DNA from: Salegentibacter salinarum
Lineage (GTDB): Bacteria > Bacteroidota > Bacteroidia > Flavobacteriales > Flavobacteriaceae
Direction: 5' to 3'
Assembly (NCBI RefSeq): GCF_900168115.1
Contig: NZ_FUZC01000001.1
Location: 310,001 to 374,000, forward strand
Length of the DNA stretch: 64,000 bases
Shown here: in pieces, positions 13,433-43,174 of the stretch
Layout: every line of letters starts with the position of its first letter
How positions within the stretch are numbered: the first letter of the stretch is position 1
Translations under genes and position numbers: made by a program
The notes under the pieces: generated by a model
Database searches by the model: none
What the model was told of the DNA's origin: nothing
What the model saw: only the letters and a program-made list of their open reading frames with translations

Positions 13433-13459
13433 ACCGCAGTTGCTACCAACAACTGCGGT
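13433..13459 (+). promoter_or_regulatory. leader hairpin upstream of susC (locus A)
   Basis: ACCGCAGTTG (13433-13442) and CAACTGCGGT (13450-13459) form a perfect 10-bp stem with a 7-nt loop, 36 nt before the susC ATG. There is no U-tract after it on the plus strand, so it is not a normal terminator. A hairpin of the same geometry but different sequence precedes the susC at 34845. Confidence 0.6.
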
Positions 13460-13495
13460 CAAAAATTAAGCAATGTCAAATCAATCACTTAAAAA

Positions 13496-16400
13496 ATGTA
13501 TTTTAAATTTAAACAAAAAAAACCGAACAGGCTAATTATCGGTCTTTCTGTTTTACTGATCACACAGGCAGGAAATTCAGCTCCTATTTTTGACGAATCT
13601 TTTCTAATTAAAAAGAACAACGAGGAGAGTATCCAGCAAACAATTAATGGAACAGTCCTGGATGAAAATGGAATTCCTTTACCCGGAGCTACTGTGCAGG
13701 TAAAAGAAACCAACCGTGGGGTAACCACTAACTTTGACGGAGAATTTTCTATTGAAGCCCAGGAAGGAGATACTCTTCAGATTTCCTTCGTAGGATTTGA
13801 AACCCATGAAATTCTAATCTCTGATAAGTCTTATTTTGAAATCCAGTTGGAAACGGATAGTGCTTCTTTGGATGAAGTTGTGATTGTTGGATATGGAACA
13901 CAAAAAAAGTCTGATCTAACAGGAGCTGTAAGTTCCGTGGACAGTGAGGAATTTAATAAAGGTATAGTTTCAAATCCCGGAGACCTTTTGCAAGGGAAAG
14001 TTTCGGGTTTAAATGTAACCAATAGCAGTGGTGAACCCGGTGCTGGTCAGGATATTGTGATTAGAGGTGTAAGTACCTTACGTTCCGGAACTTCTCCACT
14101 CTATGTGATAGATGGTTTTGTTTTAGATAATTCCTCTATAGGTGTTCCCACAAACCCTTTAAACTTCATCAATACCCAGGATATTGAATCGATTAACGTA
14201 CTTAAAGATGCTTCGGCAGCTGCCATCTATGGTTCCAGGGCTGCTAACGGTGTAGTTGTAATCACTACCAAACAGGGGAAAAAGGGTAGGGCGCAAATGA
14301 ATCTAACCGCTTCGACAGGTATTTCCAATATAGCCAATAAAATAGATGTTTTCTCGGCTGAAGAATTTAGAAACGTTGTCCAGGAGATAGGAGGGAGCCT
14401 AAGCGATAACGGCGGAAATACTGACTGGCAGGAAGAACTCACCAGGACCGCAGTCTCAAATAACATAAACTTTTCTATGAGTGGCGGTTCCGAACAAACC
14501 TCTTACTTCGCTTCCCTGGGTGCCCAGGACCAGGAAGGAATTCTTAACAATAGCGAACTTCAACGGTATTCGGCACGAGTAAACGTTTCTCAAACAGGTT
14601 TAAAAGATAGATTAAAGGTTGATTTAAATCTTACGGCTTCCCGAGTTGAGAATGAGCGGCCTAATGCCAACAGTATTATTCCCGGCATGCTCCAGCTAAA
14701 TCCCACCACACCTGCATATACAAATGGTGAACCTACAGTTTTCGGGACAGGCATCAACCCTTTAATTATTGAAAACATCTTCGGAGACTATAGTAACAAT
14801 AACAGGATGATTGCCAATATTTCTCCTTCCCTCGAGATTCTCGAAGGTTTAACATACAAACTTAACTTTGGGGTAGATTACTCTAAAACAGACAGGGACA
14901 TCCAGTTTATTCCATATTCTCAGGATCCTGATTTTGCCCTTGGATCACTTGAAACAAGTTTTACTACTAATAGAAATACTTTAATAGAAAACACTCTTAA
15001 TTACGAAGTTGAAAGGGGAGACCATTCTCTGAATTTACTGGCCGGGCACTCTTTTCAGCAATTTTTTATTGAAGCAAAGGGGTTTTATTTTTCAGACTTC
15101 CCCGATAATGGTGTTGAACCCAGGTACCAGCTTGGAGAAGCCCGGGGAGAAGATGCTACCCACTGGTCGAATGCAACAAAAAATGAATTGCAATCAGTCT
15201 TTGGCCGGGTCAATTATACATTTAAAGACAGGTATTTAATCACAGGTACCTTACGTTCGGACGGCTCCACAAAATTTGGAGAAAACAATAAGTATGCTAC
15301 TTTCCCTTCCCTGGCATTAGGATGGAATATACACAGGGAAAGTTTTATGGAAAATTCCATTTTCTCTAATTTAAAATTAAGAGCAAGTTGGGGAAAATCA
15401 GGAAACCAGGAAATTCCATCCAAGCAAACGCAACCTAGTTATGGTGAAAGTTTTGAGGACAATGATATTTACCCATTAGATGAGAATATTCTTACCAGGG
15501 AGAATTATCCTTATGGGTTGGTTTTCGCCCGAACTGCTAATCCTGACCTACAATGGGAAGAAACAACACAGAGCAATATCGGGATAGATTTTGGAATATT
15601 AAATTCCAGGTTCACCGGTACCTTCGATTACTTTATCAAGGAAACCAACGATGTATTATTATATTTTTCGACCCAGGACCCTATAGACGAAGTAGGTTTC
15701 AGATGGCAAAATATCCCGGGGATGAAAATTAAGAACAACGGACTTGAAGTTGCTTTAGATTACCAAAGTGACCAAAGTCGTAATTTTTCTTATAACCTAG
15801 GAGGAAACTTCTCCTATATAACCAATGAAATTACCGATTCCCCTTTTACTATTGTTACAACTGGTTCTGCCAGCGGGGCAGGGCAAACCGGGGCTACTAT
15901 TAATGGTTACATGAATAACAGGCCAATCGGGAATTTTTTCCTTCGGGAATTTAATGGTATTGGAGAAGATGGATTTAACAGCTTTACCGATGTAAATGGG
16001 GATGGACAGATTGATAATAGTGACCGAATATCTGCCGGTAGTGCTATTCCTGATATTATTTACGCTTTTTACACCAATTTCAGGTATAAAAACTTTGACC
16101 TTGGTCTAAATTTCAACGGGGTAAGTGGAAATAAAATATATAACCACACGAGGATGAGTTTGTTCAATAAAACACAAATTTCAAACTCTCTTAATACCAC
16201 TGAACAGGCTATTGAATTTCCCAATGAAGACCCAAGTAATTCCAATACTGTATCAACCCGTTATTTGGAAGATGGTAGTTTTCTTCGCTTAAACAACGCT
16301 ACCCTGGCTTATAACCTTGATCCTAATTTAATAGGCCTGAATAATATGTTCACCAATATAGGTTTTTCCCTTACCGGCCAGAATTTGTTTGTAATCACAG

Positions 16401-16525
16401 ATTACAGTGGTTTTGACCCGGAATTAAATACCGGAAACTCCGGCGATTCTAAGTCTTATGGAATCGATTATTACACCTATCCTACGCCAAGAACATTCAC
16501 TTTTGGTTTAAACATAGCATTCTAA
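13496..16525 (+). CDS. SusC/RagA-family TonB-dependent receptor (organophosphate locus A)
   Basis: This 1009-residue receptor forms the outer-membrane barrel of a SusCD pair. The N-terminus is a signal sequence (LIIGLSVLLITQAGNSA). The carboxypeptidase-like domain (about 50-120) is marked by LPGATVQVKETNRG and TNFDGEFSIEA, and the plug by DEVVIVGYGTQKKSDLTGAV, DIVIRGVSTLR and DIESINVLKDASAAAIYG. A calcium-binding-like DVNGDGQIDNSD loop occurs near 840. The C-terminus PTPRTFTFGLNIAF is typical of the family. SusD follows after 17 bp, then two alkaline-phosphatase-type genes in the same direction. The likely cargo is therefore a phosphorylated organic compound rather than a plain glycan; that is inference from context. 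A hairpin lies in the leader. Confidence 0.95.
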   Translation: MYFKFKQKKPNRLIIGLSVLLITQAGNSAPIFDESFLIKKNNEESIQQTINGTVLDENGIPLPGATVQVKETNRGVTTNFDGEFSIEAQEGDTLQISFVGFETHEILISDKSYFEIQLETDSASLDEVVIVGYGTQKKSDLTGAVSSVDSEEFNKGIVSNPGDLLQGKVSGLNVTNSSGEPGAGQDIVIRGVSTLRSGTSPLYVIDGFVLDNSSIGVPTNPLNFINTQDIESINVLKDASAAAIYGSRAANGVVVITTKQGKKGRAQMNLTASTGISNIANKIDVFSAEEFRNVVQEIGGSLSDNGGNTDWQEELTRTAVSNNINFSMSGGSEQTSYFASLGAQDQEGILNNSELQRYSARVNVSQTGLKDRLKVDLNLTASRVENERPNANSIIPGMLQLNPTTPAYTNGEPTVFGTGINPLIIENIFGDYSNNNRMIANISPSLEILEGLTYKLNFGVDYSKTDRDIQFIPYSQDPDFALGSLETSFTTNRNTLIENTLNYEVERGDHSLNLLAGHSFQQFFIEAKGFYFSDFPDNGVEPRYQLGEARGEDATHWSNATKNELQSVFGRVNYTFKDRYLITGTLRSDGSTKFGENNKYATFPSLALGWNIHRESFMENSIFSNLKLRASWGKSGNQEIPSKQTQPSYGESFEDNDIYPLDENILTRENYPYGLVFARTANPDLQWEETTQSNIGIDFGILNSRFTGTFDYFIKETNDVLLYFSTQDPIDEVGFRWQNIPGMKIKNNGLEVALDYQSDQSRNFSYNLGGNFSYITNEITDSPFTIVTTGSASGAGQTGATINGYMNNRPIGNFFLREFNGIGEDGFNSFTDVNGDGQIDNSDRISAGSAIPDIIYAFYTNFRYKNFDLGLNFNGVSGNKIYNHTRMSLFNKTQISNSLNTTEQAIEFPNEDPSNSNTVSTRYLEDGSFLRLNNATLAYNLDPNLIGLNNMFTNIGFSLTGQNLFVITDYSGFDPELNTGNSGDSKSYGIDYYTYPTPRTFTFGLNIAF

Positions 16526-16542
16526 TTTCAAAAAAATTTAAA

Positions 16543-18339
16543 ATGAAAAATAAAATTCTAACTGTAATTTTTGGCCTGGGTGCCTTAGTATTTACCAGTT
16601 GCACTGATTTGGAAGAAGAAATCCTTGATGAATCTTTGACTGGAACCGATGGACTAGCCGAACCTGTCTCCGGGACTTTGGCAGCGGCTTATGGAATATT
16701 ACCACAAACTTTCCGCCATACCAGGTATTTCGGTTTACAGGAGATAGCTTCGGATGAAGCCATTTTACCACCCAGAACCGGATTAGGTGGTACGCAGTGG
16801 GCAGATAACGATGTGTACACTACCGCTCACAGGCATACTATGTCTGCCAATAATAGTTTAGTTACCGGAACCTGGAGTTATTTAACAACCGCACTTTTTA
16901 GAACCGTTGCAGCTATTGAAGTACTTACGCCTCTAGCTGACAAGGGAAATATGGAAGCACAGCAGGCACTCGCTGAGATGAAAGCCTTAAGAGCCTATGA
17001 AAACATGCTGTTCCTGGATAGTTGGGGACTTGCTTTTAAAAAGGAAAGTACTTCCGGCACTTCTGAAATACTTAGAGGAGAAGATGCGGTTAACTATATC
17101 GAGGACGAATTCCTATCAATAGTAGATGTAATCAATACTGATAAGGGCCCTGGAAGAATGACCCAATCGGCTGTATATGGTTTCCTGGCAAAATTATATT
17201 TAAATGCAGGTGTATATAGAGCTCCGTACGGGACTCCCAATTTCACGAATTCAGATATGGACAATGTAATCACCTATACCAGTCTTGTTATAAATGAAGG
17301 TGGTTTCTCATTATCCCCGGAATATTTTGATCTTTTTAACGACGAAAATCACAATAATTCGGAAATTATCTTCTCTCTTGACCAAAGAGGAGTTCTTAAT
17401 AACGATCATAACCGCTGGGCCTACTGGTCGATGTCCGGATCACTATTCCCAAGACCGGGAGAGGACTATTTAAGTATGGATGGAACAGATGGTCCTGCAG
17501 CTACCCCCGATTTCTACCAGACATGGGTTGATGCATATGGCGATGTGGATCCTGCAGACGCAGACGCGAGGTTTTACCAAAAAAATGCTATGGTACCTGA
17601 AGAACTGGAAGATATAGAAGGTCTTACTCCATACAAAAATGACACCTTAGGTTTACGAAGTGATAAAGATCATTACTTTCTAGCTGATGCTGACTTTGAA
17701 ATTGACCGGGGCATCATAAGGGGTACAATGTGGGCACCGCGAAAGGAAAATTTTAGATCTGGTGATTTTATGACTGGTTCCGGCGGGCAATACAGAATTT
17801 ATCCACTGGCTGAAGCAAGGGAAAACGGCTCTGACATTGAAGATATTTGGTACTATGTGGATCATACTTTAGATATAAGTATTCAAAACCAGAATAGCTA
17901 TGCTGGCGGATATAGATTTGCAAAATGGCAATTCAGTAAAACTTCTCCAAATGGAAATAACTACAGTAACGTAGACTTGATTCTTTTAAGACTTGCAGAT
18001 ATATACCTGATGCGGGCAGAAGCTAACCTTAGAAAAGGGGATAATGCGAGCGCACTAGCCGATGTTAATACCGTTAGAACCTCCAGGAACGCTCGCCCTG
18101 AGCAAACTCCAGCTGAATTATCCTCCATCAATCTGGAAACTTTATACCGCGAACGTGGCTTTGAATTCTACTGGGAAATGTCCCGTAGGACAGACCAAAT
18201 TCGTTTTGGAACCTATGAAGATTCCTGGACTTCCAAAACAGATAGTGATGTAAACCATAGGTTGTTCCCAATTCCTCAGGAGGCTATAGATGGGGCATCT
18301 AATGTAGATGGCTATTTGGAACAAAATTCTGGATATTAA
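16543..18339 (+). CDS. SusD/RagB-family surface lipoprotein (locus A)
   Basis: This 598-residue lipoprotein has lipobox VFTSC (Cys20) and pairs with the SusC encoded 17 bp upstream as its substrate-capturing lid. Typical SusD features are the N-terminal LTGTDGLAEPVSGTLAAAYG, the TPR-like helical motifs MKALRAYENMLFLDSWG and VYGFLAKLYLNAG, and the C-terminal LRLADIYLMRAEANLR, ERGFEFYWEMSRRTDQIRFG and RLFPIPQEAI. The product sits on the outer face of the outer membrane. A terminator follows, so the downstream phosphatases may depend on read-through or their own promoter. The ligand is unknown; phospho-organic matter is suggested by the neighbours. Confidence 0.94.
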   Translation: MKNKILTVIFGLGALVFTSCTDLEEEILDESLTGTDGLAEPVSGTLAAAYGILPQTFRHTRYFGLQEIASDEAILPPRTGLGGTQWADNDVYTTAHRHTMSANNSLVTGTWSYLTTALFRTVAAIEVLTPLADKGNMEAQQALAEMKALRAYENMLFLDSWGLAFKKESTSGTSEILRGEDAVNYIEDEFLSIVDVINTDKGPGRMTQSAVYGFLAKLYLNAGVYRAPYGTPNFTNSDMDNVITYTSLVINEGGFSLSPEYFDLFNDENHNNSEIIFSLDQRGVLNNDHNRWAYWSMSGSLFPRPGEDYLSMDGTDGPAATPDFYQTWVDAYGDVDPADADARFYQKNAMVPEELEDIEGLTPYKNDTLGLRSDKDHYFLADADFEIDRGIIRGTMWAPRKENFRSGDFMTGSGGQYRIYPLAEARENGSDIEDIWYYVDHTLDISIQNQNSYAGGYRFAKWQFSKTSPNGNNYSNVDLILLRLADIYLMRAEANLRKGDNASALADVNTVRTSRNARPEQTPAELSSINLETLYRERGFEFYWEMSRRTDQIRFGTYEDSWTSKTDSDVNHRLFPIPQEAIDGASNVDGYLEQNSGY

Positions 18340-18366
18340 ACTTAATGTGTGTGTTAGTTTTTTACT

Positions 18367-18404
18367 GAGTGGTAGAAGGCCCAGGCTTTCTGCCACTCTT
18401 TTTA
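18367..18404 (+). terminator. terminator after susD (locus A)
   Basis: GAGTGGTAGAA and TTCTGCCACTC (one G-U pair) enclose a short loop and are followed by TTTTT. It lies between susD and the alkaline phosphatase gene, which begins 11 bp later. It could work as a partial terminator that lowers phosphatase expression relative to susCD. Confidence 0.75.
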
Positions 18405-18414
18405 TTAGAAAGAA

Positions 18415-19545
18415 ATGAAAAAAATAAAGATAAATTTTAGTTTATTAGTTCTTGCTACAACATTATGGAGTTGTGGGAATATTTCTGAAGAAAAAGATTC
18501 AGAGAATAAAGAAAAAGGAAATCATCAAGCCTTAAATATAATTCTAATGGTAGGTGATGGTATGGGGATTCCACAGGTTTCCAGTGCATTCTATTTTGGG
18601 GAGAACACCCCGAATTTTAAACAGTTCAAAACCATTGGTCTTAGTAACACTACCAGTCTTAGTCATTTAATTACAGATTCGGCGTCAGGGGGTACTGCAA
18701 TTGCTACTGGAGAAAAGACCTATAAAAGGGCTATAGGTGTTTCAAAAGACAGCCTTCCTCTCCCCAGCATTCTGGAGAATTTACAGGAAAGAAATTATAA
18801 AACGGGGCTGGTAAGTTTAACCTCGATAACTCACGCCACCCCTGCTTCTTTTTATGCCCATGTTAAAGACAGGGATATGCATGTGGAAATTGCAGAGCAG
18901 TTGGTTGAAGCAAATATTGATTTTTTCACCGGCGGAGGAAGAAAATATTTTGGCACATCGAAAGATGGTGTTAGTCTTTTTGACAAACTCATCGATAAAA
19001 ATTACCACCTTGATACTTTAGAGTTAGGAAGTGTGGATCTATCTCGGAAAAACGCATTTATCCTCGCCGAAGATGGATTGCCTTCAAAAACACAAGGACG
19101 AAAAGATTACCTGCAAACCGCAACACAAAAAGGCCTTGATTATTTTAGCAAGCATGAACAACCCTTCTTTTTTATGATTGAAGGTTCCTATATTGATTGG
19201 GGTGGACATGCCAAAGATGATGAAATGATGATCCAGGAGGTCCTTGATTTTGATAAGACATTAGGTGTTGTATTAGATTTTATAGCCTCCCATCCCAATA
19301 CTTTATTGGTAGTTACAGCTGATCATGAAACGGGGGGAGTTAGTATTGGAAAATCCTATGATGAGCAGCAGCAGGAAGTTCCTAAAAAAGTTCAGGTATA
19401 TTTTAACGACGACCAACATAGCGCAGAATTGGTGCCTGTTTTTGCTAAAGGTAGTCAAGAACAACTTTTTTCGGGTATTTACGAAAATAATGAAATCTAT
19501 CACAAGCTAATCCAAGCCATAAACAACCATTCCTATGAAAAATAA
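18415..19545 (+). CDS. alkaline phosphatase (PhoA family) lipoprotein
   Basis: This is a 376-residue phosphomonoesterase with lipobox TLWSC (Cys20), so it is probably membrane-anchored outside the cytoplasm. Alkaline-phosphatase motifs in order are ILMVGDGMGIPQVS (metal Asp at about 48), TDSASGGTAIATGEKT (catalytic Ser at about 89), HATPASFYAHVKDRDM, FFTGGGRKYF, IEGSYIDWGGHAKDD and VTADHETGGVSIG. The length is compact compared with E. coli PhoA (about 470). It would release inorganic phosphate from phosphate monoesters. It overlaps the next gene, a phosphodiesterase-phosphatase fusion, by 11 bp, so the pair is translationally coupled. The upstream SusCD probably delivers the substrate. Confidence 0.93.
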   Translation: MKKIKINFSLLVLATTLWSCGNISEEKDSENKEKGNHQALNIILMVGDGMGIPQVSSAFYFGENTPNFKQFKTIGLSNTTSLSHLITDSASGGTAIATGEKTYKRAIGVSKDSLPLPSILENLQERNYKTGLVSLTSITHATPASFYAHVKDRDMHVEIAEQLVEANIDFFTGGGRKYFGTSKDGVSLFDKLIDKNYHLDTLELGSVDLSRKNAFILAEDGLPSKTQGRKDYLQTATQKGLDYFSKHEQPFFFMIEGSYIDWGGHAKDDEMMIQEVLDFDKTLGVVLDFIASHPNTLLVVTADHETGGVSIGKSYDEQQQEVPKKVQVYFNDDQHSAELVPVFAKGSQEQLFSGIYENNEIYHKLIQAINNHSYEK

Positions 19546-21304
19546 AATTATAATGTGGGCGTCCCTGTTTTTCTATTTATGCAATTTTTTCCTGCCAGTT
19601 GAGGCCCAAGAGTCTTATCAGTTTCATTCTCATAACGATTATAAACAGGAATTCCCTTTCTGGAAAGCCTATACTAATAAGGCAGCTTCTATTGAAGTTG
19701 ATGTTTTTTTGAAAGACAATCGCCTATATGTGGCACATACTGAAGATGAAATCCAGGATGAAAACCGCCTTGAGAACTTGTATTTAGATCCCCTGAAGAG
19801 CCTGGCTAAATCAACGCAACTGAGAGAAATTCAGCTTTTAATTGATATAAAAACCGAAGCAGAAAATACGCTAACTAAACTAATGGAAGTCCTGGAGGGG
19901 TATCCGCAATTGACCCAAGCTAAACAGCTTTCCATCGTTATTTCCGGGAACAGGCCTAAAGTCGTAAATTATAGCGACTATCCGGATTTTGTAAAATTTG
20001 ACCATCAGGATTTAAACAACCTTGAACAGATTAATTTAGCTAAAATTGCTTTGATCAGCACCAATTTCAGAACCTATTCCCAATGGAACGGACTGGGGCG
20101 ACTGACTGCCGAAGATCTCGAAAAGGTAAAAAATGTGATTGCCAAAGTCAAAAAAGTTGATAAGCCTTTTCGGTTTTGGGGAGCACCTGATACCAAAACA
20201 GCCTGGAGCAGGTTTGCAAAAATGGGGGTAGATTTAATTAATACTGATAATCCTGCTGGAGCTTCTGCTTATTTACAAAGTTTAGATAAGCATACTTTTA
20301 GGTTAAAGGATGCAGTTCCTGTCTATAAACCAGAATTTAAAATACCTACAGCAGCCAGGCCAGAAAATATTATTCTAATGATCGGTGATGGCAACGGATT
20401 GAATCAAATTTCTTCAGGAATGATCGCTAACCAGGGGGAACTTACGCTGACACAATTAAAGGATATTGGCCTGGTAAAGACTTCCTCTTATGATGACCTA
20501 GTAACTGATTCTGCCGCCGGTGGAACAGCCATAGCTACTGGAAATAAAACTAACAACCGCGCTATTGGTACCGGACCGATGGGGGAATCTTTAAAGGGGC
20601 TCCCGGAAATTCTTGCCCCTCGGGGTTTTATTAACGGGATAATTACCAATGATAAAATTACAGGAGCTACTCCTTCCTCCTTTTATGCCCATGTTAAAGA
20701 ACGCGACAATAGTGCACAAATTCTGGAAGACTTAAAACAAAGTCACATTAATTTCTTTATCGCTAACGGGAAAGATACTTTCAATACTGTAGCGGATGTC
20801 TTTAATAAAAAAGAGCTTTCTGATTTTGTTGCTGTAAAAGGAAGGACGGCTATCTTTCTTTCTAACGATGAAAGACTTTACAAAGGAAACCAATTTGCAT
20901 TCCATGTCAAAAAGGCACTTCAAAACCTGGAAAGCCAGGATAAACCCTACTTTTTAATGATTGAGGGAGCTAAGATAGATAGCAATGGACATACCAATAA
21001 TTTTGCGGGCATTGTTCAGGAGGTAATTGACTTTGACCTTGCAGTGGCAGAAGCATTAAAAGTTGCAGATAATAACAAAAAGACCTTAGTAGTGGTCACT
21101 GCAGATCATGAGACTTCGGGTTTAGGCATTATGCAAGGTGATCTTGAAACAAGGAAATTGGAAGCCGGTTTTTTAACCAATGACCATACTGCTACTATGG
21201 TCCCTATCTTTTCCTATGGTCCAAAATCAGGTATCTTTAGGGGAGTTTACGAAAACACTGCCATTTTTAGCAAGATTTTAGAAGCTTTGGAAATACCAGA
21301 ATAA
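19535..21304 (+). CDS. GDPD/PI-PLC-like phosphodiesterase fused to alkaline phosphatase
   Basis: This 589-residue secreted fusion has a signal peptide ending VEAQ. The N-terminal domain (about 27-250) belongs to the PLC-like phosphodiesterase TIM barrels: FHSHNDYKQEFPFWKAY with the first His near 31, ASIEVDVFLKDNRLYVAH, and late FRFWGAPDTKTAW and VDLINTDNP. The C-terminal domain (about 275-589) is a PhoA-type alkaline phosphatase with ILMIGDGNGLNQIS, TDSAAGGTAIATGNKT (catalytic Ser at about 326), GATPSSFYAHVKERD, IEGAKIDSNGHTNN and VTADHETSGLGI. One chain could cut a phosphodiester such as a glycerophosphodiester and then remove the phosphate from the monoester product. The coupling to the preceding phosphatase and convergent metallophosphoesterase supports phosphorus scavenging. 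The actual substrate is inferred. Confidence 0.88.
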   Translation: MKNKIIMWASLFFYLCNFFLPVEAQESYQFHSHNDYKQEFPFWKAYTNKAASIEVDVFLKDNRLYVAHTEDEIQDENRLENLYLDPLKSLAKSTQLREIQLLIDIKTEAENTLTKLMEVLEGYPQLTQAKQLSIVISGNRPKVVNYSDYPDFVKFDHQDLNNLEQINLAKIALISTNFRTYSQWNGLGRLTAEDLEKVKNVIAKVKKVDKPFRFWGAPDTKTAWSRFAKMGVDLINTDNPAGASAYLQSLDKHTFRLKDAVPVYKPEFKIPTAARPENIILMIGDGNGLNQISSGMIANQGELTLTQLKDIGLVKTSSYDDLVTDSAAGGTAIATGNKTNNRAIGTGPMGESLKGLPEILAPRGFINGIITNDKITGATPSSFYAHVKERDNSAQILEDLKQSHINFFIANGKDTFNTVADVFNKKELSDFVAVKGRTAIFLSNDERLYKGNQFAFHVKKALQNLESQDKPYFLMIEGAKIDSNGHTNNFAGIVQEVIDFDLAVAEALKVADNNKKTLVVVTADHETSGLGIMQGDLETRKLEAGFLTNDHTATMVPIFSYGPKSGIFRGVYENTAIFSKILEALEIPE

Positions 21305-21305
21305 G

Positions 21306-23150: not shown

Positions 23151-23174
23151 AACTTGTATTCAATTTTAAACAGA

Positions 23175-23538: not shown

Positions 23539-23547
23539 CTTAAAATA

Positions 23548-31766: not shown

Positions 31767-33635
<1,869 letters not shown>

Positions 33636-33680
33636 TTAATATTGGTATTTCTGGCGTTCGGAAATTCTTCCGAAGCACAT

Positions 33681-33884: not shown

Positions 33885-33989
33885 TTGTTGATATTTAATA
33901 GCTGTAAACTGCAGGGGATTCCCTAAAGAAAAAAGTAAATACAAACCAGAATTCCTTCAAAAGCGGAATTATGAAAAAAATATGTAGAT

Positions 33990-34075
33990 AACACTTTTCC
34001 CTTCGCGGGTATTAACCGGATCAGGTTCAAAGGGTTTTATCTCAGCCGATTGCTACCAATCAGCACCCCTAAAGT
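33990..34075 (-). ncRNA. TPP (thiamine pyrophosphate) riboswitch
   Basis: On the minus strand the THI-box elements are GGGGTGCTGATT, GGCTGAGATAAAACCCTTT and GAACCTGATCCGGTTAATAC followed by CGCGAAGGGAA. It lies about 105 nt upstream of thiS and should turn the whole eight-gene operon off when TPP is plentiful. The ends are approximate. Confidence 0.96.
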
Positions 34076-34778
34076 TTACGTTTTCAAATGTAACGGAATT
34101 TTACTGGGAAATAAAAATTTTAGGCTGATAGTGTAATAAGAAAATTGTAAATTTTAAATACGTGTATCAAAGTCCATGTGTCGCTACTTACCGTTACCAC
34201 GGGTTGCCTCGTACAACGTGTTGCCGTCATACATGGCGGAAAATCTTGGTTGAAGAAATCGGTAAAAGAGAAAAAAGCAACCTAATCAATCAAATTTCAG
34301 AAACCCATAGATCTCTATAACAGGAAGAAAGAAACGCTGCAAAACCTTAAAATCCAATCCTTGGCACACTCTTCTTGATTTTTCGCATAGGGGAGCAAGT
34401 GAATTATTGCTGAAGTAGTCTGGATATATGGAGAATTTTCCGCTAAAGGGTGGGATGGTGATTTATTTTAAAATAAACCTTGTCTACCAAGAATATAAAT
34501 AAATAATATTCGATAAGACTGGATGTAGATTTATTTATCTCAAACTATTTGTCTGTTGTAAAATTTACCCATTTGATTTCAACGAATCTAAATCATTTCC
34601 TATCAAAAGACTTACCTAGCACCAATTTAAAATTAAGTTAATAGTATCTTAAACTAGAAACAATCTTTCGGGAGAAAGAAGTTTATAGTTTTGAGCAAAC
34701 CTATTCAGAACCCATAGAATCTAACTCTAAATAATATTTATAAGAAAAAACACTCCTTTGAATTAGCTAAAAAAAACA
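34076..34778. other. long intergenic region upstream of locus B
   Basis: No gene is recognised between the divergent TPP riboswitch and susC. A less AT-rich patch at 34174-34236 is bounded by CCATGT and ACATGG inverted arms and contains TACAACG; its nature is unknown. Following bases to about 34320 are open for some 25 codons (EIGKREKSNLINQIS) with no start and no match known to me. The right end holds a candidate susC promoter. Confidence 0.45.
34686..34693 (+). promoter_or_regulatory. candidate -7 element for the locus B susC
   Basis: TAGTTTTG fits the Bacteroidota -7 consensus TAnnTTTG. It lies about 150 bp upstream of the susC ATG, so the leader would include the hairpin at 34779-34804. 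No good -33 TTG was found at the usual distance. Confidence 0.35.
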
Positions 34779-34804
34779 GCCCATTCTGCTGCAACAGAAT
34801 GGGC
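34779..34804 (+). promoter_or_regulatory. leader hairpin upstream of susC (locus B)
   Basis: GCCCATTCTG (34779-34788) and CAGAATGGGC (34795-34804) form a perfect 10-bp stem with a 6-nt loop, 40 nt before the susC ATG. On the plus strand there is an A-run before it but no U-tract after it, so it does not look like a plus-strand terminator. It matches the placement and size of the hairpin before the locus A susC. Confidence 0.6.
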
Positions 34805-34844
34805 CTTATTAAGACTACAAATAATTAATTTATAGCCACTTGTA

Positions 34845-37800
34845 ATGGATACAAAAATACATTTTTTTTTAAAGAAAGCATATATCATATGCTTTCTATT
34901 GATTTTCACAGAAGCTTTTCCTTCCAATTTTAATCCTAAGGCAATACCTGGATTCGGTGATTTTCAACAAACTGTTCAAGGAAAAGTTTTAGATGAGCAA
35001 GGTTTACCCCTTCCAGGAGCAACTGTAAGAGAAAAGGGAAGTTCCAACGGCACCAATACCGACTTTGATGGGAACTTTAGTATTGAAACCACTTCCAATT
35101 CTTCCGTTCTAGAAATTTCTTTTATGGGATATATTACCCAGGAGTTAATCCCTCAGGGCACTGAGGAAATTACAGTGAAACTGATGCCTGATAAGAATGC
35201 CCTTGAAGAAGTTGTTGTAGTTGGTTATGGCGAGACCAGTAGAGAAAATTTATCAACTGCTGTTAGTACTGTAAATACCACAAATATCGCAGAACGCCCT
35301 GTCGCCGATATTAGTTCAAGTTTGCAAGGGCTTAGTCCTGGTTTAAACGTGACCCAATCTACCGGAAAGGTGGGAGCAGATCCTCGTATCAATATTCGCG
35401 GATTTACCTCTATAAATGGAGGAACACCTTTAATTCTTATAGATGGAGTAGAAGGAGACTTGAGTAATCTTAATCCTAATGACGTAGAATCGATAAGTGT
35501 TTTAAAAGATGCTGGTTCTGCCGCTATTTACGGCGCTAGAGCGGCGTTTGGAGTTGTATTAGTAACTACAAAGAATGCTAAGAAAGGTAATATTGTTGTC
35601 AATATGGGTGCTACTATGGCTGTTAGTTACCCTACAATGAATACAGATTTTGTTACCGATCCCTATCAAGCGGTAAGCATCGTCGATGAAGCGTTTAGAA
35701 ATAACAGCGGCGCTTCATATACTGGTTATACCGAGGACGATATGGAAGCCCTTCTGGAGGTATCTCAAGACCCATCACTAGCAAGAGTAATTGTAGATCA
35801 ACGCAATGGCCGAGAGCAATATGTCCACTATGGTAGCACCGATTGGTGGAATACCTTTTTTAGAAAAACTTATCCTTCACAAATTTATACCGGTTCCATT
35901 TCAGGAGGGTCGGAAAAAATCAATGCTTATTTCTCTTATCGTAACTTTCAATCTACAGGAATATTGAAAGTACAGGATGATAAGTATCAAAAGTACAACC
36001 TAAGGGGCAAACTAGATATTGAAGCTACAGATTGGCTTACCTTTTCCACTAATATGCAATACAATAGCTCTTCAGATTTGGAACATGGGGGAACGCAATA
36101 TGGTTACAGAGATGTGTGGGGAAGTATGATTTGGGTTCATGCCTTGCCATCTTATATGCCTACCAATCCAGATGGTAGTGCTTTATGGAGAACGGAACTT
36201 AACAATTATACTATTGGAGACGGGATCTATGCTTCTTTACTCCAAGGAAGTTCACAACAAGAGACAAATGATAATGGCTTCTCGAATATAGCAACGGCTG
36301 AGATAAAACCTTTTGACTTTTTAACATTCAATGCTAGTTACGCCATCAGAAGAAATAATTATTCTCAGTATGAGCGCTCTACCAGGATTCCCTATTCCAT
36401 ATATCCCGGTCAAATAGATTTAATGGGTTATGATTATTTAAATGAATACAGAACAGAAAGTAAATATGACGCACTGAACGTTTATGGAGAATACAGAACA
36501 TTTCTTGGCAACCATAGTTTAAAAGCGGTGTTGGGGTACAATCACGAAACATTTCTTAGAAAAAGTATTTCAGCCGGTAAACAGAATCTTATTTCCAATG
36601 ATCTCAATTCCCTTGGATTGGCTACAATTAGTCCTTCTGCAGACGGTAGTGCTTCCGAATGGGCTTTACAGGGATTGTTTTACAGGTTATCTTATGATTA
36701 TAATGATAAGTATTTACTGGAACTTAACGGCCGGTATGATGCTACCTCACGATTTCCATCTGATTATCGATGGGGGTTTTTTCCATCCGCATCAGCGGGT
36801 TGGTTGTTAAATAAAGAAAAATTCTTTAGTGAATTCACTAACGACTCCTTTGACATTTTCAAATTACGAGGTTCCTACGGTTCTCTGGGTAACCAAAACA
36901 TAAATGATTATGCCTATTTCGCAACCCTTCCAAATGGACTGTATGACTACCCTATGAATGGCAGTAGATTGAATTATATTGAATCACCGGCTTTAAACCC
37001 AACAGAAATTACCTGGGAAGAAGTCAGCACTTTTAACCTTGGAACTGACATTGCTTTATTCAACAATCGATTATCAATGGTTTTTGACTGGTTCCAACGG
37101 GATACTGAAGGAATGTTGGCACCGGGGGCTACGCTGCCAAGTGTTTTAGGAGCAGAATCTCCCCTGGAGAATGCAGCCGACTTAAGAACCAGAGGTTTTG
37201 AAATTTCTTTGACCTATGGTGATTCTTTTAATGTAGCCAAGAATCCGTTATCGTTTTCAATAACCGGAAATTTATCAAATTCAGTAACTAAAATTACAAG
37301 ATTTGAAAATCCAAATTTAAGCCTTTTTGATTTTTATGAAGGGATGACTATTGGCGAACTTTGGGGATACCGCCTAGACGGCTTGTTTATATCTGAAGAA
37401 GAAATAGCCAATCATGCCGATCAGAGTTTCGTATCTAACCGTATTACTTCTGGTGGGGGTTTAAAGCCTGGGGATCTGAAATATTTTGATTTAAATGGAG
37501 ATGGGGTGATAAATGAGGGTGAGAATACTGTGAATAACCCCGGAGATAAAGAAATCATTGGTAATTCAGCACCTCAGTACCTGTACAGTTTCAATCTTAA
37601 TACCCACTGGAAAGGATTTGATCTTTCAGCCTTTTTTCAAGGAGTAGGCAAACAAGACTGGTATCCTAACTCCGACTCCCGGCTATTTTGGGGACCTTTC
37701 AACAGGCCCTACAATTCTTTTATAAGAAAAGACCTTGCAAATAATATATGGTCTCCTGAAAATCCTGATGCTTATTTTCCAAGAAATTATGGGTATATAG

Positions 37801-38111
37801 CTCTGGGGGGGTCTTTAGAAAAGGTTAATGACAGATACTTGCAGAGTGTAGCTTACCTGCGATTGAAGAACCTTACTCTCGGTTACACCTTGCCAAAAGG
37901 AGTTATATCCAATTCAGATTCAACAAAGCTTCGTATTTATTTTAGCGGTGAAAATATTCTCACGTTTTCCCCTTTAACAGATTATATAGATCCCGAGGCG
38001 GCCAGTAATTCAGTTAATTTAAACCAGCCTACTACTTCTTCCAACAGAAGTACGGCCCAAACTGTACCTTTTTCCAAAACATATTCATTAGGAGTGTCAT
38101 TTCAATTTTAA
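34845..38111 (+). CDS. SusC/RagA-family TonB-dependent receptor (organophosphate locus B)
   Basis: This is a 1088-residue outer-membrane receptor. The N-terminus has a hydrophobic export signal (about 10-24). The carboxypeptidase-like domain shows VQGKVLDEQGLPLPGATVRE and TNTDFDGNFSIET, and the plug DALEEVVVVGYGE-type sequence, INIRGFTSINGG and DVESISVLKDAGSAAIYGAR. The barrel ends with KTYSLGVSFQF. A DLNGDGVINEGENT loop near 880 resembles a calcium site. SusD follows 11 bp later, then phosphatase/nuclease-type enzymes in the same direction, so the cargo is probably a phosphate ester or nucleic-acid-derived compound (inference). The residue before LEEVVVVGYG is Ala, as in many SusC proteins. 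Confidence 0.95.
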   Translation: MDTKIHFFLKKAYIICFLLIFTEAFPSNFNPKAIPGFGDFQQTVQGKVLDEQGLPLPGATVREKGSSNGTNTDFDGNFSIETTSNSSVLEISFMGYITQELIPQGTEEITVKLMPDKNALEEVVVVGYGETSRENLSTAVSTVNTTNIAERPVADISSSLQGLSPGLNVTQSTGKVGADPRINIRGFTSINGGTPLILIDGVEGDLSNLNPNDVESISVLKDAGSAAIYGARAAFGVVLVTTKNAKKGNIVVNMGATMAVSYPTMNTDFVTDPYQAVSIVDEAFRNNSGASYTGYTEDDMEALLEVSQDPSLARVIVDQRNGREQYVHYGSTDWWNTFFRKTYPSQIYTGSISGGSEKINAYFSYRNFQSTGILKVQDDKYQKYNLRGKLDIEATDWLTFSTNMQYNSSSDLEHGGTQYGYRDVWGSMIWVHALPSYMPTNPDGSALWRTELNNYTIGDGIYASLLQGSSQQETNDNGFSNIATAEIKPFDFLTFNASYAIRRNNYSQYERSTRIPYSIYPGQIDLMGYDYLNEYRTESKYDALNVYGEYRTFLGNHSLKAVLGYNHETFLRKSISAGKQNLISNDLNSLGLATISPSADGSASEWALQGLFYRLSYDYNDKYLLELNGRYDATSRFPSDYRWGFFPSASAGWLLNKEKFFSEFTNDSFDIFKLRGSYGSLGNQNINDYAYFATLPNGLYDYPMNGSRLNYIESPALNPTEITWEEVSTFNLGTDIALFNNRLSMVFDWFQRDTEGMLAPGATLPSVLGAESPLENAADLRTRGFEISLTYGDSFNVAKNPLSFSITGNLSNSVTKITRFENPNLSLFDFYEGMTIGELWGYRLDGLFISEEEIANHADQSFVSNRITSGGGLKPGDLKYFDLNGDGVINEGENTVNNPGDKEIIGNSAPQYLYSFNLNTHWKGFDLSAFFQGVGKQDWYPNSDSRLFWGPFNRPYNSFIRKDLANNIWSPENPDAYFPRNYGYIALGGSLEKVNDRYLQSVAYLRLKNLTLGYTLPKGVISNSDSTKLRIYFSGENILTFSPLTDYIDPEAASNSVNLNQPTTSSNRSTAQTVPFSKTYSLGVSFQF

Positions 38112-38122
38112 AAAATAATGTT

Positions 38123-39859
38123 ATGAATTATAAACGCTTATTATTTATCGCCGCTATTTGCTTTAGCTTGTTTGCTTGTAGCAAAGAATTTCTGGATAAA
38201 GAGCCTTTGTCTGAGGTAACTCCCGAAAATTTCTTCTCAACAGCAAGTGATCTCCAACTGTACACAAATGGATTCTACAGAATGTTTCCTCATACTTCCA
38301 TTTACAATGGTGATTCCAGAACAGATAATATTATACAGAACCAACTCAGCGATGAGATGAGAGGAACCAGACTAATTCCAACATCTGGAGGAGGCTGGAG
38401 CTGGGAATATTTACGAGATATCAATTTCTTCCTTGAAAACTATGAAAGAAGCAATGATGAAGCAGCTAAAAATCACTATGGAGGTGTAGCACGTTTTTTT
38501 AGAGCATACTTTTACTTCGAGAAATTACAGCGTTTCGGAAAAGTTCCATGGTATGATTCCACCATTGATCCTACAGATAAAGAATCACTGACAAAACCAA
38601 GGGATAACCGTCAATTTGTAGTGGATAAAATTTTAGAAGATTTAGATTGGGCCATTGAAAATATGAAGGCAGATCAACAAGTGTATGAAATTACAAAATA
38701 TACAGCTTTAGCGCTAAAGTCAAGAGTTGGGCTTTATGAAGGTACTTATGAAAAGTACCGTGATATTGATGGTTATCAGAAATACTTAGAGGCTTCTATA
38801 AAAGCTTCGGAAGAACTTATCAATAACTCGCCTTATGCTGTCTATAACACGGGAAATGCGCAGGCTGATTATTCAAGTCTGTTCAATTCTCATGCTGCCA
38901 TAGACACTGAAATAATCCTGGCCAAAGCATATTCCGAAGCATTGAATATTGGACATAATGTAAATTATTACACCACGACATCCTCTTATGGGAGACCGGG
39001 AATGCCAAAGGATCTTGTGAACAGCTATTTAAATACTGATGGCTCGCGTTTCACAGATCAGGAAAATTATAATCAGATATTTTTCACTGATGAAGTGGAT
39101 AACCGTGATCTGCGTCTATCACAAACCATAAGGACACCCGGCTATTCCAGGAAAGGCCAATCTATGGAACTAGCACCCAACCTGGGAGCTACAGTTACAG
39201 GCTACCAGATTACAAAATATGTAACAGAACCTGTTTATGATACCAATGGACAGTCTATTACTGATTTGCCATTATTCAGGTTTGGAGAAGTAGTATTAAA
39301 TTATGCCGAAGCAAAAGCAGAACTAAATACGCTAAGCCAGGAGGATTTAGATCATTCCCTAAACTTACTAAGGTCCAGGGTGGATATGCCTAGCTTATCA
39401 CTTGAAATGGCCAATAACAATCCTGATCCCTTTATAGGCTACCAATATCCTAATGTAGACGGAAGTAACAAAGGGGCAATTCTGGAAATCAGAAGAGAAA
39501 GGCGTATCGAGCTTTATATGGAAAACTTTAGATGGGATGATATTGTGCGGTGGAAAGCAGGAGAAGCTTTGACTCAACCTATACGTGGAATGTATCTTCC
39601 GGGTCCCGGAGAATATGACCTAACCGAAGACGGTGAAATAAACGTGGTACTGTATGAAGGAGAACGTCCTGATAATTTAATTACAGGAATTCAATATTAT
39701 GAAGTAGGTTCAGATCTATCTCTGGATGAGAACAATTTAATAGAACCGCATCCCGATTTTGATAACCGCACATTTAACGAGAATAAAGATTATCTCTATC
39801 CCATTCCGCGTATAGAATTACAATTAAATCCTAATATAGAACAAAATCCAGGATGGTAA
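38123..39859 (+). CDS. SusD/RagB-family surface lipoprotein (locus B)
   Basis: This is a 578-residue lipoprotein with lipobox LFACS (Cys19). SusD features include FLDKEPLSEVTPENFFSTAS, the helical GGVARFFRAYFYFEKLQRFG, and the C-terminal FRFGEVVLNYAEAKAEL, EIRRERRIELYMENFRWDDI and YLYPIPRIELQLNPNIEQNP. It forms the surface lid of the SusC encoded 11 bp upstream. Its stop codon TAA overlaps the ATG of the next gene by one base, so the phosphatase-like enzyme is translationally coupled to it. Confidence 0.95.
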   Translation: MNYKRLLFIAAICFSLFACSKEFLDKEPLSEVTPENFFSTASDLQLYTNGFYRMFPHTSIYNGDSRTDNIIQNQLSDEMRGTRLIPTSGGGWSWEYLRDINFFLENYERSNDEAAKNHYGGVARFFRAYFYFEKLQRFGKVPWYDSTIDPTDKESLTKPRDNRQFVVDKILEDLDWAIENMKADQQVYEITKYTALALKSRVGLYEGTYEKYRDIDGYQKYLEASIKASEELINNSPYAVYNTGNAQADYSSLFNSHAAIDTEIILAKAYSEALNIGHNVNYYTTTSSYGRPGMPKDLVNSYLNTDGSRFTDQENYNQIFFTDEVDNRDLRLSQTIRTPGYSRKGQSMELAPNLGATVTGYQITKYVTEPVYDTNGQSITDLPLFRFGEVVLNYAEAKAELNTLSQEDLDHSLNLLRSRVDMPSLSLEMANNNPDPFIGYQYPNVDGSNKGAILEIRRERRIELYMENFRWDDIVRWKAGEALTQPIRGMYLPGPGEYDLTEDGEINVVLYEGERPDNLITGIQYYEVGSDLSLDENNLIEPHPDFDNRTFNENKDYLYPIPRIELQLNPNIEQNPGW

Positions 39860-40725
39860 TGAAAAAATTAATAATTATAGCTTTTCTATTATTTGGTATC
39901 GTGATTAATGCTCAAAATGATGAAAGTGATTTAACGGTTGCATCCTATAATATAAGATGGAACAGTCCTGATGACGGAATTAATATATGGGAAAACAGAA
40001 AAGAATGGCTGACTCAGAGCATCAAGTTTTTTGAGGTTGATATTTTTGGTGCACAGGAAGTTACCTTTACCCAGTTAAAAGATATGGCTGGATTTCTTCC
40101 TGCATATCAATATATTGGAGAAGGTAGGGAAGGTGGGGCTAAAGGAGAGTACAGTCCCATTTTCTATGCTAAGGATCGTCTGGAGGTATTGGATAGTAGT
40201 ACATTTTGGCTTTCTGAAACTCCACAAACAACAGCTTCAAAAGGATGGGATGCCGCATTACCCCGAATAGTTACATGGGCAAAATTTAGAGATAAAAAAG
40301 ACGGGGATATTTTTTACTTTTTTAATACTCATTTTGATCATAGAGGGGTAATTGCAAGAAAGAAGAGCGCTGAATTAATCGCATATAAAATCAACGAAAT
40401 TGCAGGAGACGGGCCTGTAATCCTTTCAGGTGATTTTAATACAGCACCAGATTCTAAGCCCCATAAGATTTTATTGAAAAATAAGCTTGAAGATACTTTC
40501 TTAAGCCTGTCTCAGGAACAAAGATATACTCCCGGATACACCTTTAACAGTTGGGATGTAGAAGCAAGTGGTGACCGTTACAGGATTGATTATATATTTT
40601 ATAGAGGAGAAGAATTATCCCCGTTAAAATACCATGTTCTGGATGGACAACGGGGAAAGCGGTTTATTTCCGACCATTTTCCTGTAATTGTAAAGTTTGA
40701 GTGGACAAATACCGCCGAAAAATAA
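39859..40725 (+). CDS. secreted endonuclease/exonuclease/phosphatase-family enzyme
   Basis: This is a 288-residue exported enzyme from the ATG at 39859, which overlaps the susD stop (TAATG). The reading from 39853 adds two residues and is less likely. A signal peptide ends NAQ near residue 19. EEP-fold motifs in order are VASYNIRWNSPDDG, FGAQEVTFTQL (catalytic Glu), FNTHFDHRG, VILSGDFNTAPDSKPH, YRIDYIFYRG and FISDHFPVIVKF (catalytic Asp-His). The superfamily includes DNase I-like nucleases, sphingomyelinases and inositol-polyphosphate phosphatases; short bacterial secreted members like this are usually phosphodiesterases of unknown target. In this locus it probably cuts an organic phosphate handled by SusCD. 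Confidence 0.9.
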   Translation: MKKLIIIAFLLFGIVINAQNDESDLTVASYNIRWNSPDDGINIWENRKEWLTQSIKFFEVDIFGAQEVTFTQLKDMAGFLPAYQYIGEGREGGAKGEYSPIFYAKDRLEVLDSSTFWLSETPQTTASKGWDAALPRIVTWAKFRDKKDGDIFYFFNTHFDHRGVIARKKSAELIAYKINEIAGDGPVILSGDFNTAPDSKPHKILLKNKLEDTFLSLSQEQRYTPGYTFNSWDVEASGDRYRIDYIFYRGEELSPLKYHVLDGQRGKRFISDHFPVIVKFEWTNTAEK

Positions 40726-40737
40726 TTCTTTTTAAAA

Positions 40738-41603
40738 ATGAAAAGTCTAACGCTAATACAGGTGGTTCTCTATATGATTCCCACCTTTCTTTCTACACCG
40801 GAGAATAAAGATATTTTCTATTCCCATTCTGAAAAGGGAATTTTGGACCTGAATGAAAATCAGGTTAATCTAAAAGTGATGGCTTATAACATACACCATG
40901 CAAATCCACCTTCTAAACCTGATACTATCGATATTGATGCCATTATTAAAACGATACAAGGACAGGATCCTGACATAGTTGCCCTTCAGGAAATCGATGC
41001 GAATACAACAAGATCGGGCGAAGGAAATCAGGCTGAGATATTAGAAGAAAGACTGGGAATGAACGTTTTCTTTAGTAAAGCCATAAATTATGACGGATGA
41101 GAATATGGAGTTGCTGTTTTATCAAAACACCCTATTTCAGAGCAAAAAGTACATTACCTTCCAACAGTCCAGGGAACTAATAGTGAATCCAGAGTTTTGG
41201 CGACCGTTAAAATTACTCTACCTAATATGGATTATTCATCCGATTTGGTAGCACTCATCTGGATTCACAACGAACCAATACCAATCGTTTACTTCAGATG
41301 AAAGAATTAGCGACCATTACTTCGGAAGAAAAATTGCCAATGATAGTGGCAGGAGATTTTAATGCCCCTCCAAACTCCAAAGTAATAAATATTTTAGAGA
41401 AAAATTTTACTAGAACCTGCACTAGTTGTGAACCTACAATTCCAGTTCAGAACCCGGTTAAAGCAATTGATTTTATTGCTTTAAAATCGAAGGAAATTTT
41501 TAGCATAAAATGTCATAAAGTAATCAATGAAATCTATGCTTCAGATCACCTTCCCATTTTGGCTGTTTTAAAGGTTAAACAATTGCAAACTTTATCAAAA
41601 TGA
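40738..41603 (+). pseudogene. second endonuclease/exonuclease/phosphatase-family gene, disrupted
   Basis: The ORF starts MKSLTLIQVV and carries EEP motifs VMAYNIHHANPP and VALQEIDANTTRSG, then meets an in-frame TGA at 41098-41100, directly before EYGVAVLSKHPIS, where relatives continue without a break. A second lesion, a frameshift near 41225-41240, lies between LPNMDY and the restored frame FGSTHLDSQRTNTNRLLQ. After that MIVAGDFNAPPNSK, KAIDFIALKS and YASDHLPILAVLK complete the fold up to the stop at 41603. All catalytic motifs remain recognisable, so inactivation looks recent. The end overlaps the next ATG by 4 bp, as in an operon. Sequencing error is possible but would need two independent errors. 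Confidence 0.85.
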
Positions 41604-43174
41604 AAATACTTTTCACTAAGTGCGTTTTATGCTTTTCACTAAATCTTTTGGCACAAACCACTGCCATGGGTTATGTTTTTGAAGATACTAATGAAAATGG
41701 CAAAAAAGACCGTCGCGAGCAAGGAATCGCTGAGGTAGCTGTAACTAATGGCATCAAGGTCGTTCTTACCAATCAAGAAGGAAAATACGAATTGCCCGTG
41801 GGTGAAGATAATATTATTTCGGTGATAAAGCCTTCAGGATATAAAGTTGGTATAAACGAAGGTAACCTGCCGCAGTTCTTTTATATCCATAAACCAAATG
41901 GTTCACCAGATTTAAAATTTAAGGGAGTGGAACCAACCGGGATACTACCAAATTCAGTTGACTTTGCTTTAATTTCTTCCGAAGAAAAAGAAGATTTTAC
42001 CGCGCTTATTTTTGGAGACCCACAACCATATACCCAGCAGCAAGTAAATTATTTTGCTGAAGGAATTGTAGCAGAATTAGAAGGTATAGAAAAAGTTCCG
42101 TTTGGATTAAGTCTGGGAGATCTGGTAGGAGATGATCTCGATCTATTTAATCCGTATATAAAAGCGGTTAAAAACGTGAGTATTCCTTGGTATAATTTAC
42201 TGGGCAACCACGATATCAACTTCGATTTGGAAAATGATACGCTTTCCGATGAGACTTACGAGGCACATTTTGGCCCTGCCAACTATGCTTTTAATTATGG
42301 GAAGGTGCATTTCCTAGTTTTGGACGATGTTTTATATCCAGATCCTCGAGATGGAAAAGGTTACTGGGGCGGTTTTAGAGAAGACCAGTTCCAGTTTATC
42401 GAAAATGATTTAAAACATGTTACTAAAGATCATTTGATAGTAGTTGCATTGCATATTCCGCTTAGTGAGCCAGATGGCAGGGATACCTTTCGCGATGAAG
42501 ACAGGGAAAGACTTTTTAAACTTTTAAAATACTTCCCAAATACTCTTTCGCTTTCGGCTCATACGCATATACAGCGTCAGGACTTTTTCCAAAAAGAAGA
42601 GGGATGGCAACAGGATAAACCGCACCACCACTATAATGTTGGGACAACTTTTGGAGATTGGTATTCTGGAAAATTAGACGAAAAAAATGTTCCAATTTCC
42701 ACTATGCGTGACGGAACCCCGAAAGGTTATGCATTTATAAATTTCGATGGAAATGAGTATAGTATTGATTATAAAGTAGCGGGGAAACCAGCCGATTATC
42801 AAATGGAAGTTTTTGCTTCAAAGGTAGTCGCCAAAGGTAGAGGAACCAAGGCAGGAATTTATGTGAATTTCTTTATGGGGACCGAAGGCGATGAGGTTTT
42901 ATACAGAATAGATGATGGGGAATGGAAAGAAATGCAGTATATGGAAGATTATGATCCATCTTATATAGAAATGGTCTACGAATGGGATTCTACCGAAGAA
43001 TTAATGCCCGGCAGGAGATCTTCCAACCCTATTATAAGTGAGCATTTGTGGCGTGGTAATATTCCCACTAAACTTGAAGCCGGTGAGCATAGCATTGAAA
43101 TAAAAGCTGCCGATATATTCGAAAAAACACATACAGCCAAAAGTAGTTACCGATTAGCTGAACCCGTTGAATAG
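41600..43174 (+). CDS. three-domain calcineurin-like phosphoesterase
   Basis: This is a 524-residue secreted enzyme with a signal peptide (about 1-19, ending LLAQ). Domain 1 (about 22-110) is the beta-sandwich typical of these proteins: GYVFEDTNENGKKDRREQGI, VVLTNQEGKYELPVG. Domain 2 (about 130-360) is the metallophosphoesterase core, with ALIFGDPQPYTQQQ, GLSLGDLVGDDLD, WYNLLGNHDINFD, VVALHIPLSEPDG and LSLSAHTHIQRQD. Domain 3 (about 380-520) is a C-terminal beta domain with IYVNFFMGTEGDEVLYRIDD. This matches the N-, core- and C-domain order of a common Bacteroidota phosphoesterase. It is the last gene of locus B, followed by a strong terminator. It should release phosphate or cut phosphodiesters at or outside the outer membrane. 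Confidence 0.92.
   Translation: MKILFTKCVLCFSLNLLAQTTAMGYVFEDTNENGKKDRREQGIAEVAVTNGIKVVLTNQEGKYELPVGEDNIISVIKPSGYKVGINEGNLPQFFYIHKPNGSPDLKFKGVEPTGILPNSVDFALISSEEKEDFTALIFGDPQPYTQQQVNYFAEGIVAELEGIEKVPFGLSLGDLVGDDLDLFNPYIKAVKNVSIPWYNLLGNHDINFDLENDTLSDETYEAHFGPANYAFNYGKVHFLVLDDVLYPDPRDGKGYWGGFREDQFQFIENDLKHVTKDHLIVVALHIPLSEPDGRDTFRDEDRERLFKLLKYFPNTLSLSAHTHIQRQDFFQKEEGWQQDKPHHHYNVGTTFGDWYSGKLDEKNVPISTMRDGTPKGYAFINFDGNEYSIDYKVAGKPADYQMEVFASKVVAKGRGTKAGIYVNFFMGTEGDEVLYRIDDGEWKEMQYMEDYDPSYIEMVYEWDSTEELMPGRRSSNPIISEHLWRGNIPTKLEAGEHSIEIKAADIFEKTHTAKSSYRLAEPVE

Follow-up and report, generated by a model that had tools for sequence, protein, structure and literature searches.

Gene calls and Pfam domain assignments place two SusCD loci with phosphoesterase genes in the 64,000-nucleotide stretch of the Salegentibacter salinarum genome analyzed here (the window): locus A at 13496-23150 and locus B at 34845-43174. 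They are separated by ~11 kb that holds metE and thiamine genes, which are unrelated to them. Because this DNA carries metE, preceded by a cobalamin riboswitch (window positions 26314-26499), together with an operon of thiamine genes in which a TPP riboswitch (33981-34080, minus strand) stands ahead of thiC, we treat the two loci as separate islands rather than as one region. We rejected the idea that A and B belong to a single system, as their SusC proteins are only 28% identical and fall into different clades, and the 11 kb of metE and thiamine genes between the loci contradicts it as well. Foreign origin was likewise discarded as a candidate, the GC content of 39.1% (locus A) and 38.0% (locus B) against 37.6% for the window giving no signal in base composition.

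Locus A begins with susC (13496-16525, plus strand), whose product has the TonB barrel, Plug, and CarbopepD_reg_2 domains of Pfam, followed by susD (16543-18339, plus strand; PF07980), encoding a protein with the lipobox TSC, assigned by eye, and a top solved match of modest score to 3ck7, a protein named SusD. The next gene (18415-19545, plus strand) encodes a PhoA-type alkaline phosphatase (PF00245, E 1e-64; E 1e-89 against PDB 2iuc), a probable lipoprotein whose leader ends in LWSC, read by eye as a lipobox. It is followed by a gene for a GDPD-like domain fused to a PhoA domain (19535-21304, plus strand; PF13653 GDPD_2 at residues 211-241 and PF00245) and by a convergent metallophosphoesterase gene (21306-23150, minus strand; PF00149), for whose product a solved relative was sought and none was found. 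Pfam agrees throughout with the first-pass annotation of this locus, which had coupled SusC/SusD to a PhoA-type lipoprotein, a phosphodiesterase-phosphatase fusion, and a convergent metallophosphoesterase. PhoX has 0 matches in this genome.

In an alignment of 15 fusion rows, residues H31, E54, D56, and H68 are invariant in the GDPD half, and we take these to be GDPD-type catalytic site residues. The PhoA half has D285, D325-S326, E477, D482, H486, D524-H525, and H551 as invariant positions, which presumably form a PhoA-type site. On the simplest reading, the fusion would be a two-step enzyme that converts a diester to a monoester and the monoester to phosphate.

Locus B lies entirely on the plus strand and consists of susC (34845-38111; Pfam), susD (38123-39859; PF07980 and PF14322), an intact EEP gene, EEP1 (39853-40725; PF03372), a second EEP gene, EEP2 (40738-41603), and a gene for a MetallophosN-Metallophos-MetallophosC phosphoesterase (41600-43174; PF16371, PF00149, PF16370). 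EEP2 is broken by an in-frame TGA (41098-41100) and by a frame change further on, and locus B is partly decayed. Its description in the first pass as SusC/SusD with two EEP enzymes and a three-domain phosphoesterase is thus confirmed by Pfam except that the second EEP gene is broken. No glycoside hydrolase domain was found by Pfam in the ORFs of at least 100 aa at either locus, as had been claimed, and neither has the glycoside hydrolase or lyase of a glycan PUL. Instead, both combine adjacent SusC and SusD with phosphomono- or phosphodiesterases and no CAZymes, as in a PusCD system, Pfam being the sole domain basis for this statement.

The GDPD-PhoA fusion and its SusCD partners

The genome has 30 matches to PF07980 (SusD), so a SusCD pair near some hydrolase is in itself unremarkable, and the question is whether particular pairings recur. 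The full-length fusion is present here and in 17 of 148 other sampled genomes of the family; close homologues of the fusion, and likewise of locus A and of locus B, are each found in 2 of 15 genomes of the genus, counting this one. The family-genome set was combined with 55 named loci among the best 80 of a longer list to give 72 fusion loci, species possibly being common to the two sets. Among the matches listed, 46 of the 72 fusion loci, versus 1 of 23 PhoA-only loci, have a SusCD pair at most 3 kb away (Fisher p 3e-7, from rows that are not phylogenetically independent). Within 8 kb, a pair is found at 55 of the 72 loci, and no labeled pair at 17 (both among the matches listed). The PhoA-only control rows are few and have flanks shorter than 5 kb in 11 of 23 cases versus 8 of 72 for the fusion (among the matches listed); removal of such rows by hand leaves a pair within 3 kb at 41 of 64 fusion loci (among the matches listed) and at 0 of 12 PhoA-only loci. 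L140 and L154 belong to neither class and were left out of this comparison. The first pass had proposed a comparison of gene order across genomes, and for locus A this comparison bears out its view, in that the pairing of fusion and SusCD recurs across Bacteroidota.

The SusC partners belong to several lineages. In a quickly built tree of 97 sequences, with several long branches, SusC A lies in a starred clade of 15 in which every member is within 8 kb of a fusion. Flavobacterium-type loci with the gene order of the published PUSII (see below) fall into a separate starred clade whose 28 members each have a fusion within 5 kb; the SusC of locus B and of a paralogous cluster on contig C37 group with this clade at a support of 87, without a star. 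When the tips are scored as near a fusion (52) or not (45), 8 changes are required on the tree, at least 5 of them forced by starred branches, compared with a mean of 32.3 for shuffled labels, and 0 of 500 shuffles gave a count as low as 8. Hence, the pairing shows strong clustering but extends over several SusC lineages, whose number depends on the sample, given that the non-fusion rows come mostly from loci fetched for MetallophosC and locus B.

Other phosphoesterases occur near the fusion at lower frequency. A homologue of the locus A metallophosphoesterase lies within 10 kb at 7 of the 72 loci, an EEP gene nearby at 3, and MetallophosC at 4 (all among the matches listed), the last two versus 0 of 23 PhoA-only loci each, numbers too small for a test. 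MetallophosC directly adjoins the fusion in L068, L070, L107, and L135, and an EEP1-type gene shares a cluster with it in Flagellimonas (L094), Dyadobacter (L141), and Dysgonomonas (L150). These last 3 of 72 loci, again among the matches listed, provide a hint that the enzymes of loci A and B may act on related substrates.

SusCD complexes induced by phosphate depletion were described and named PusCD by Lidbury et al. in 2020 (PMC8115612), and this idea is restated in PMC8812569; the central notion of a SusCD system for phosphoesters was therefore already known. The 2020 paper describes six forms of PusCD and calls PusD polyphyletic. Its Table 1 gives Flavobacterium johnsoniae PUSII as PusC2, PusD2, and PhoA1 (pf00245+pf13653; Fjoh_3251-3249), induced at low phosphate, and the authors predicted that PUSII reaches phosphodiesters too (PMC8115612). 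Locus A is like PUSII in that its SusCD stands beside a PhoA of the identical Pfam pair. It differs in having an additional PhoA lipoprotein and a metallophosphoesterase, and in having no ECF/FecR-size pair upstream; where PUSII has a FecR-like regulator directly upstream, the gene next upstream of susC A is TetR-like and on the opposite strand. The importer differs as well: in Flavobacterium loci of PUSII order (L129, L130, L132, L133, L135), the relatives by which F. johnsoniae is represented here, a 185-aa ORF and a ~306-aa ORF, assigned to an ECF sigma factor and FecR by size alone, precede SusC, SusD, and the fusion, and the SusC proteins are 31-32% identical to SusC A and lie in the other of the two starred clades. 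F. johnsoniae PUSI resembles the loci described here in having phosphodiesterases, including a pf00149 enzyme, alongside SusCD, and differs in that Table 1 gives it pf00149 and pf16670 enzymes with an ECF sigma factor and lists no EEP gene (PMC8115612). A literature search covering titles and the beginnings of abstracts, with figures, supplements, and subscription papers outside its scope, found no description of the locus A SusC lineage or of a C37-type cluster. As judged from its genes, locus A is a close counterpart of the published phosphate-scavenging type with a different importer lineage.

Features upstream of susC

Terminator-like hairpins facing antisense to susC are located upstream of susC A (13433-13459, minus strand), where the edge of the hairpin coincides with the start of the region singled out in the first pass, and of susC B (34778-34805, minus strand). 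Among fetched relatives, such a hairpin lies just upstream of 22 of 92 susC genes versus 10 of 541 other ORFs (Fisher p 7e-13, from rows that are not independent); it is missing at susC of locus C and at both C37 susC genes. DonS-type cis-antisense RNAs have been described in Bacteroides (PMC7366714, PMC11697453), and susC A and B share with them the antisense-facing terminator-like hairpin, any such RNA here being a candidate. By eye, a TGTTGCAGCA-like core is common to many of the hairpin loops upstream of susC.

In 24 upstream stretches examined for direct repeats with an 11-base period, none was found upstream of susC A. Loci L129, L130, L132, and L133 have in common the motif ATGTT, present twice, 11 bases apart, upstream of the ECF-size ORF, which is possibly a Pho-box candidate or else a mark of mere relatedness; the other loci have different direct repeats or none. 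With no repeat at susC A and varied ones elsewhere, the repeats do not support a common phosphate control that includes locus A. The regulators vary too. Nine fusion loci (L064, L066, L068, L069, L070, L075, L096, L106, and L107) encode a protein of ~1235 aa upstream of susC, of which that in L064, the only one scanned, is SusR-like, with Reg_prop, Y_Y_Y, and an AraC-type HTH and no kinase domain. Such domains, as found in ligand-sensing regulators, speak for probable control by substrate rather than by phosphate at that locus. Other relatives with a fusion locus have small upstream ORFs whose sizes match ECF and FecR.

Relatives of locus B

Orthologues of locus B are found in seven other genomes, with SusD proteins 67-83% identical. 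SusC-SusD-EEP1 forms a conserved core in all seven (7/7), and an EEP2-type gene follows EEP1 in three of them (L212-L214), where it is unbroken. MetallophosC is labeled in 0 of the 7; the copy in the window is 80-85% identical, over the longest piece, to copies in four genomes of the genus (L220, L222, L223, and L224), which sit with C37-type SusCD and a GDPD gene. The order SusC-SusD-MetallophosC-GDPD is intact in L220 and L223, while the SusC ORF is short in L222 and the MetallophosC ORF split in L224. MetallophosC occurs at 20 places in 14 of 149 sampled genomes; 16 neighborhoods were fetched, the other four being two in the present genome and two in fusion loci, and this gene order is present in 6 of the 16. 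From the universal core, the absence of MetallophosC from the orthologues, and its high identity to GDPD-linked copies, locus B resembles an EEP locus to which an enzyme of a GDPD locus has been added. The proposed comparison of gene order thus upholds the SusCD-EEP1 part of this locus and leaves out its MetallophosC. Split or short SusC and split MetallophosC ORFs in relatives (L073 6592-9540, L222 6997-8979, L224 8471-10083) represent either decay of such loci elsewhere or assembly errors.

EEP1 has solved matches in 3g6s, 3mpr, and 4c1r. The highest of these with a named activity is 4c1r, a 'mannosyl-6-phosphatase' (E 2.8e-47, EEP1 residues 27-251), presumably the enzyme from a Bacteroides thetaiotaomicron yeast-mannan locus, and EEP1 shares its family and motifs, an activity on mannose-6-phosphate being putative. 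Locus B could accordingly be a phosphoglycan system, in which SusCD would import a phosphorylated oligosaccharide, EEP1 would remove the sugar-6-phosphate, and the glycosidases would be encoded elsewhere. Such a role would fit with the retained EEP motifs and with the seven orthologous loci, which have no labeled GDPD-like gene, but the higher-scoring match, 3g6s, carries no assigned activity, and locus B, unlike what a glycan system would suggest, has no glycoside hydrolase by Pfam, which at the seven orthologous loci covered a minority of the flanking ORFs. Nor does Pfam find one in 15 neighboring ORFs (10 + 5) of distant B- and C37-type SusCD, where the enzymes have EEP, GDPD, PHP, GDSL esterase, and AP_endonuc_2 domains and the other proteins are of DUF, PKD, propeller, and FecR types. 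We regard a phosphoglycan role for locus B as possible, though unlikely. Sulfatase-like genes are present in three distant B- or C37-type loci (L225, L227, and L229).

The same genome has a paralogous cluster on contig C37 (C37:1-40000; L011, L012), with genes for DeoR, SusCD, a sulfatase, GDPD, GDSL, a PF01663 phosphodiesterase, GlpF, GlpK, and GlpD, as well as MetallophosC, LamG, Gfo/Idh, two 3-ketodisaccharide hydrolases, a second SusCD, EEP, MFS, and AraC. Compared with locus B, its proteins are 40% (SusC), 47% (SusD), and 63% (MetallophosC) identical, and the pieces of EEP2 63 and 46%. The cluster is partly conserved in G149 (L221) and G154 (L219). It looks like a cluster for the use of glycerophospho-compounds for carbon, and its paralogues beside GlpF, GlpK, and GlpD tie the families of locus B to glycerol use and hence to carbon.

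Proposed roles of the two loci

The reading that we consider probable, for the two loci jointly, is that locus A represents PusCD-type phosphoester import and locus B a related SusCD-EEP import system, now partly decayed. Its direct support consists of gene content, recurring neighborhoods, invariant candidate catalytic residues, and separate SusC lineages. Counting against it are the lack of PhoX in the genome, the match of EEP1 to a mannosyl-6-phosphatase, the protein named SusD as top solved match of SusD A, the occurrence of close homologues of each locus in 2 of 15 genomes of the genus, the SusR-like regulator of L064, and the fusion loci that have no labeled SusCD pair within 8 kb (17 of 72 among the matches listed). 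The first-pass view that both loci serve organic phosphate rather than glycans holds up for locus A, where the pairing recurs and the similar PUSII is induced by phosphate depletion (PMC8115612); for locus B it is not established, as EEP1 resembles 4c1r, MetallophosC is found in none of the orthologues, and one EEP gene is broken.

Transport, cellular place, substrate, reaction order, and regulation are the parts of this model that we infer. SusD and SusC of locus A would take small phosphodiesters across the outer membrane, most likely glycerophosphodiesters, i.e., deacylated lipid headgroups. In the periplasm, the GDPD domain of the fusion would release glycerol-3-phosphate or a related monoester, from which its PhoA domain would then free phosphate, and the PhoA lipoprotein and metallophosphoesterase may widen the range of substrates. 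The SusCD-EEP core of locus B would dephosphorylate a small phosphorylated molecule after its import, this locus having presumably gained a metallophosphoesterase like those of GDPD loci in the genus.

Acquisition of phosphate may, however, be half the story, since the C37 cluster ties these families to genes of glycerol catabolism and suggests a role in carbon supply too. Taken further, glycerophospho-compounds could be consumed for glycerol and the head group, with phosphate as a by-product. The content of C37 (GDPD, GlpF, GlpK, GlpD) and its partial retention in G149 and G154 are in line with such carbon acquisition, as are the DonS-like hairpins at susC A and B, DonS having been described at glycan loci (PMC7366714), but loci A and B themselves have no glycerol genes and F. 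johnsoniae PUSII responds to phosphate depletion (PMC8115612), so that we find carbon as the main purpose rather doubtful. That the phosphatases fell beside SusCD by chance, without shared function, is very improbable despite the 30 SusD matches in the genome, the recurrence of the fusion beside SusCD relative to PhoA-only loci and the retention of SusC-SusD-EEP1 in every orthologue largely refuting it for the locus A fusion and locus B EEP1, as far as gene neighborhoods can tell, and not for the locus B MetallophosC.

We tentatively put forward, with less confidence than for the two loci themselves, a phylum-wide class of SusCD systems that would consume deacylated phospholipid headgroups. 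Its signature would be the bifunctional GDPD-PhoA enzyme together with several SusCD lineages and different regulators (ECF/FecR-like, SusR-like, or none), and in some hosts, as at C37, related genes would feed glycerol catabolism, yielding carbon and phosphate. Annotation usually treats SusCD pairs as importers of glycans, and recognizing phosphoester SusCD loci, for which the fusion provides a searchable marker, would correct substrate predictions. Because one enzyme is found with several SusC lineages, the specificity of SusD becomes directly testable across SusD proteins expected to share a ligand. This raises the question of whether phospholipid headgroups are recycled by Bacteroidota as a source of carbon, of phosphate, or of both.

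Elsewhere in the window, positions 43474-50419 encode DeoR, SusC, SusD (SusD-like_2), and a SIS-domain MurQ-like protein, and positions 58586-62708 a GH3/beta-lactamase fusion and an HGSNAT-type protein; together, these genes possibly serve peptidoglycan (MurNAc) recycling. A RhuM/Fic-domain protein is encoded at 50438-51433, adjoining locus C.
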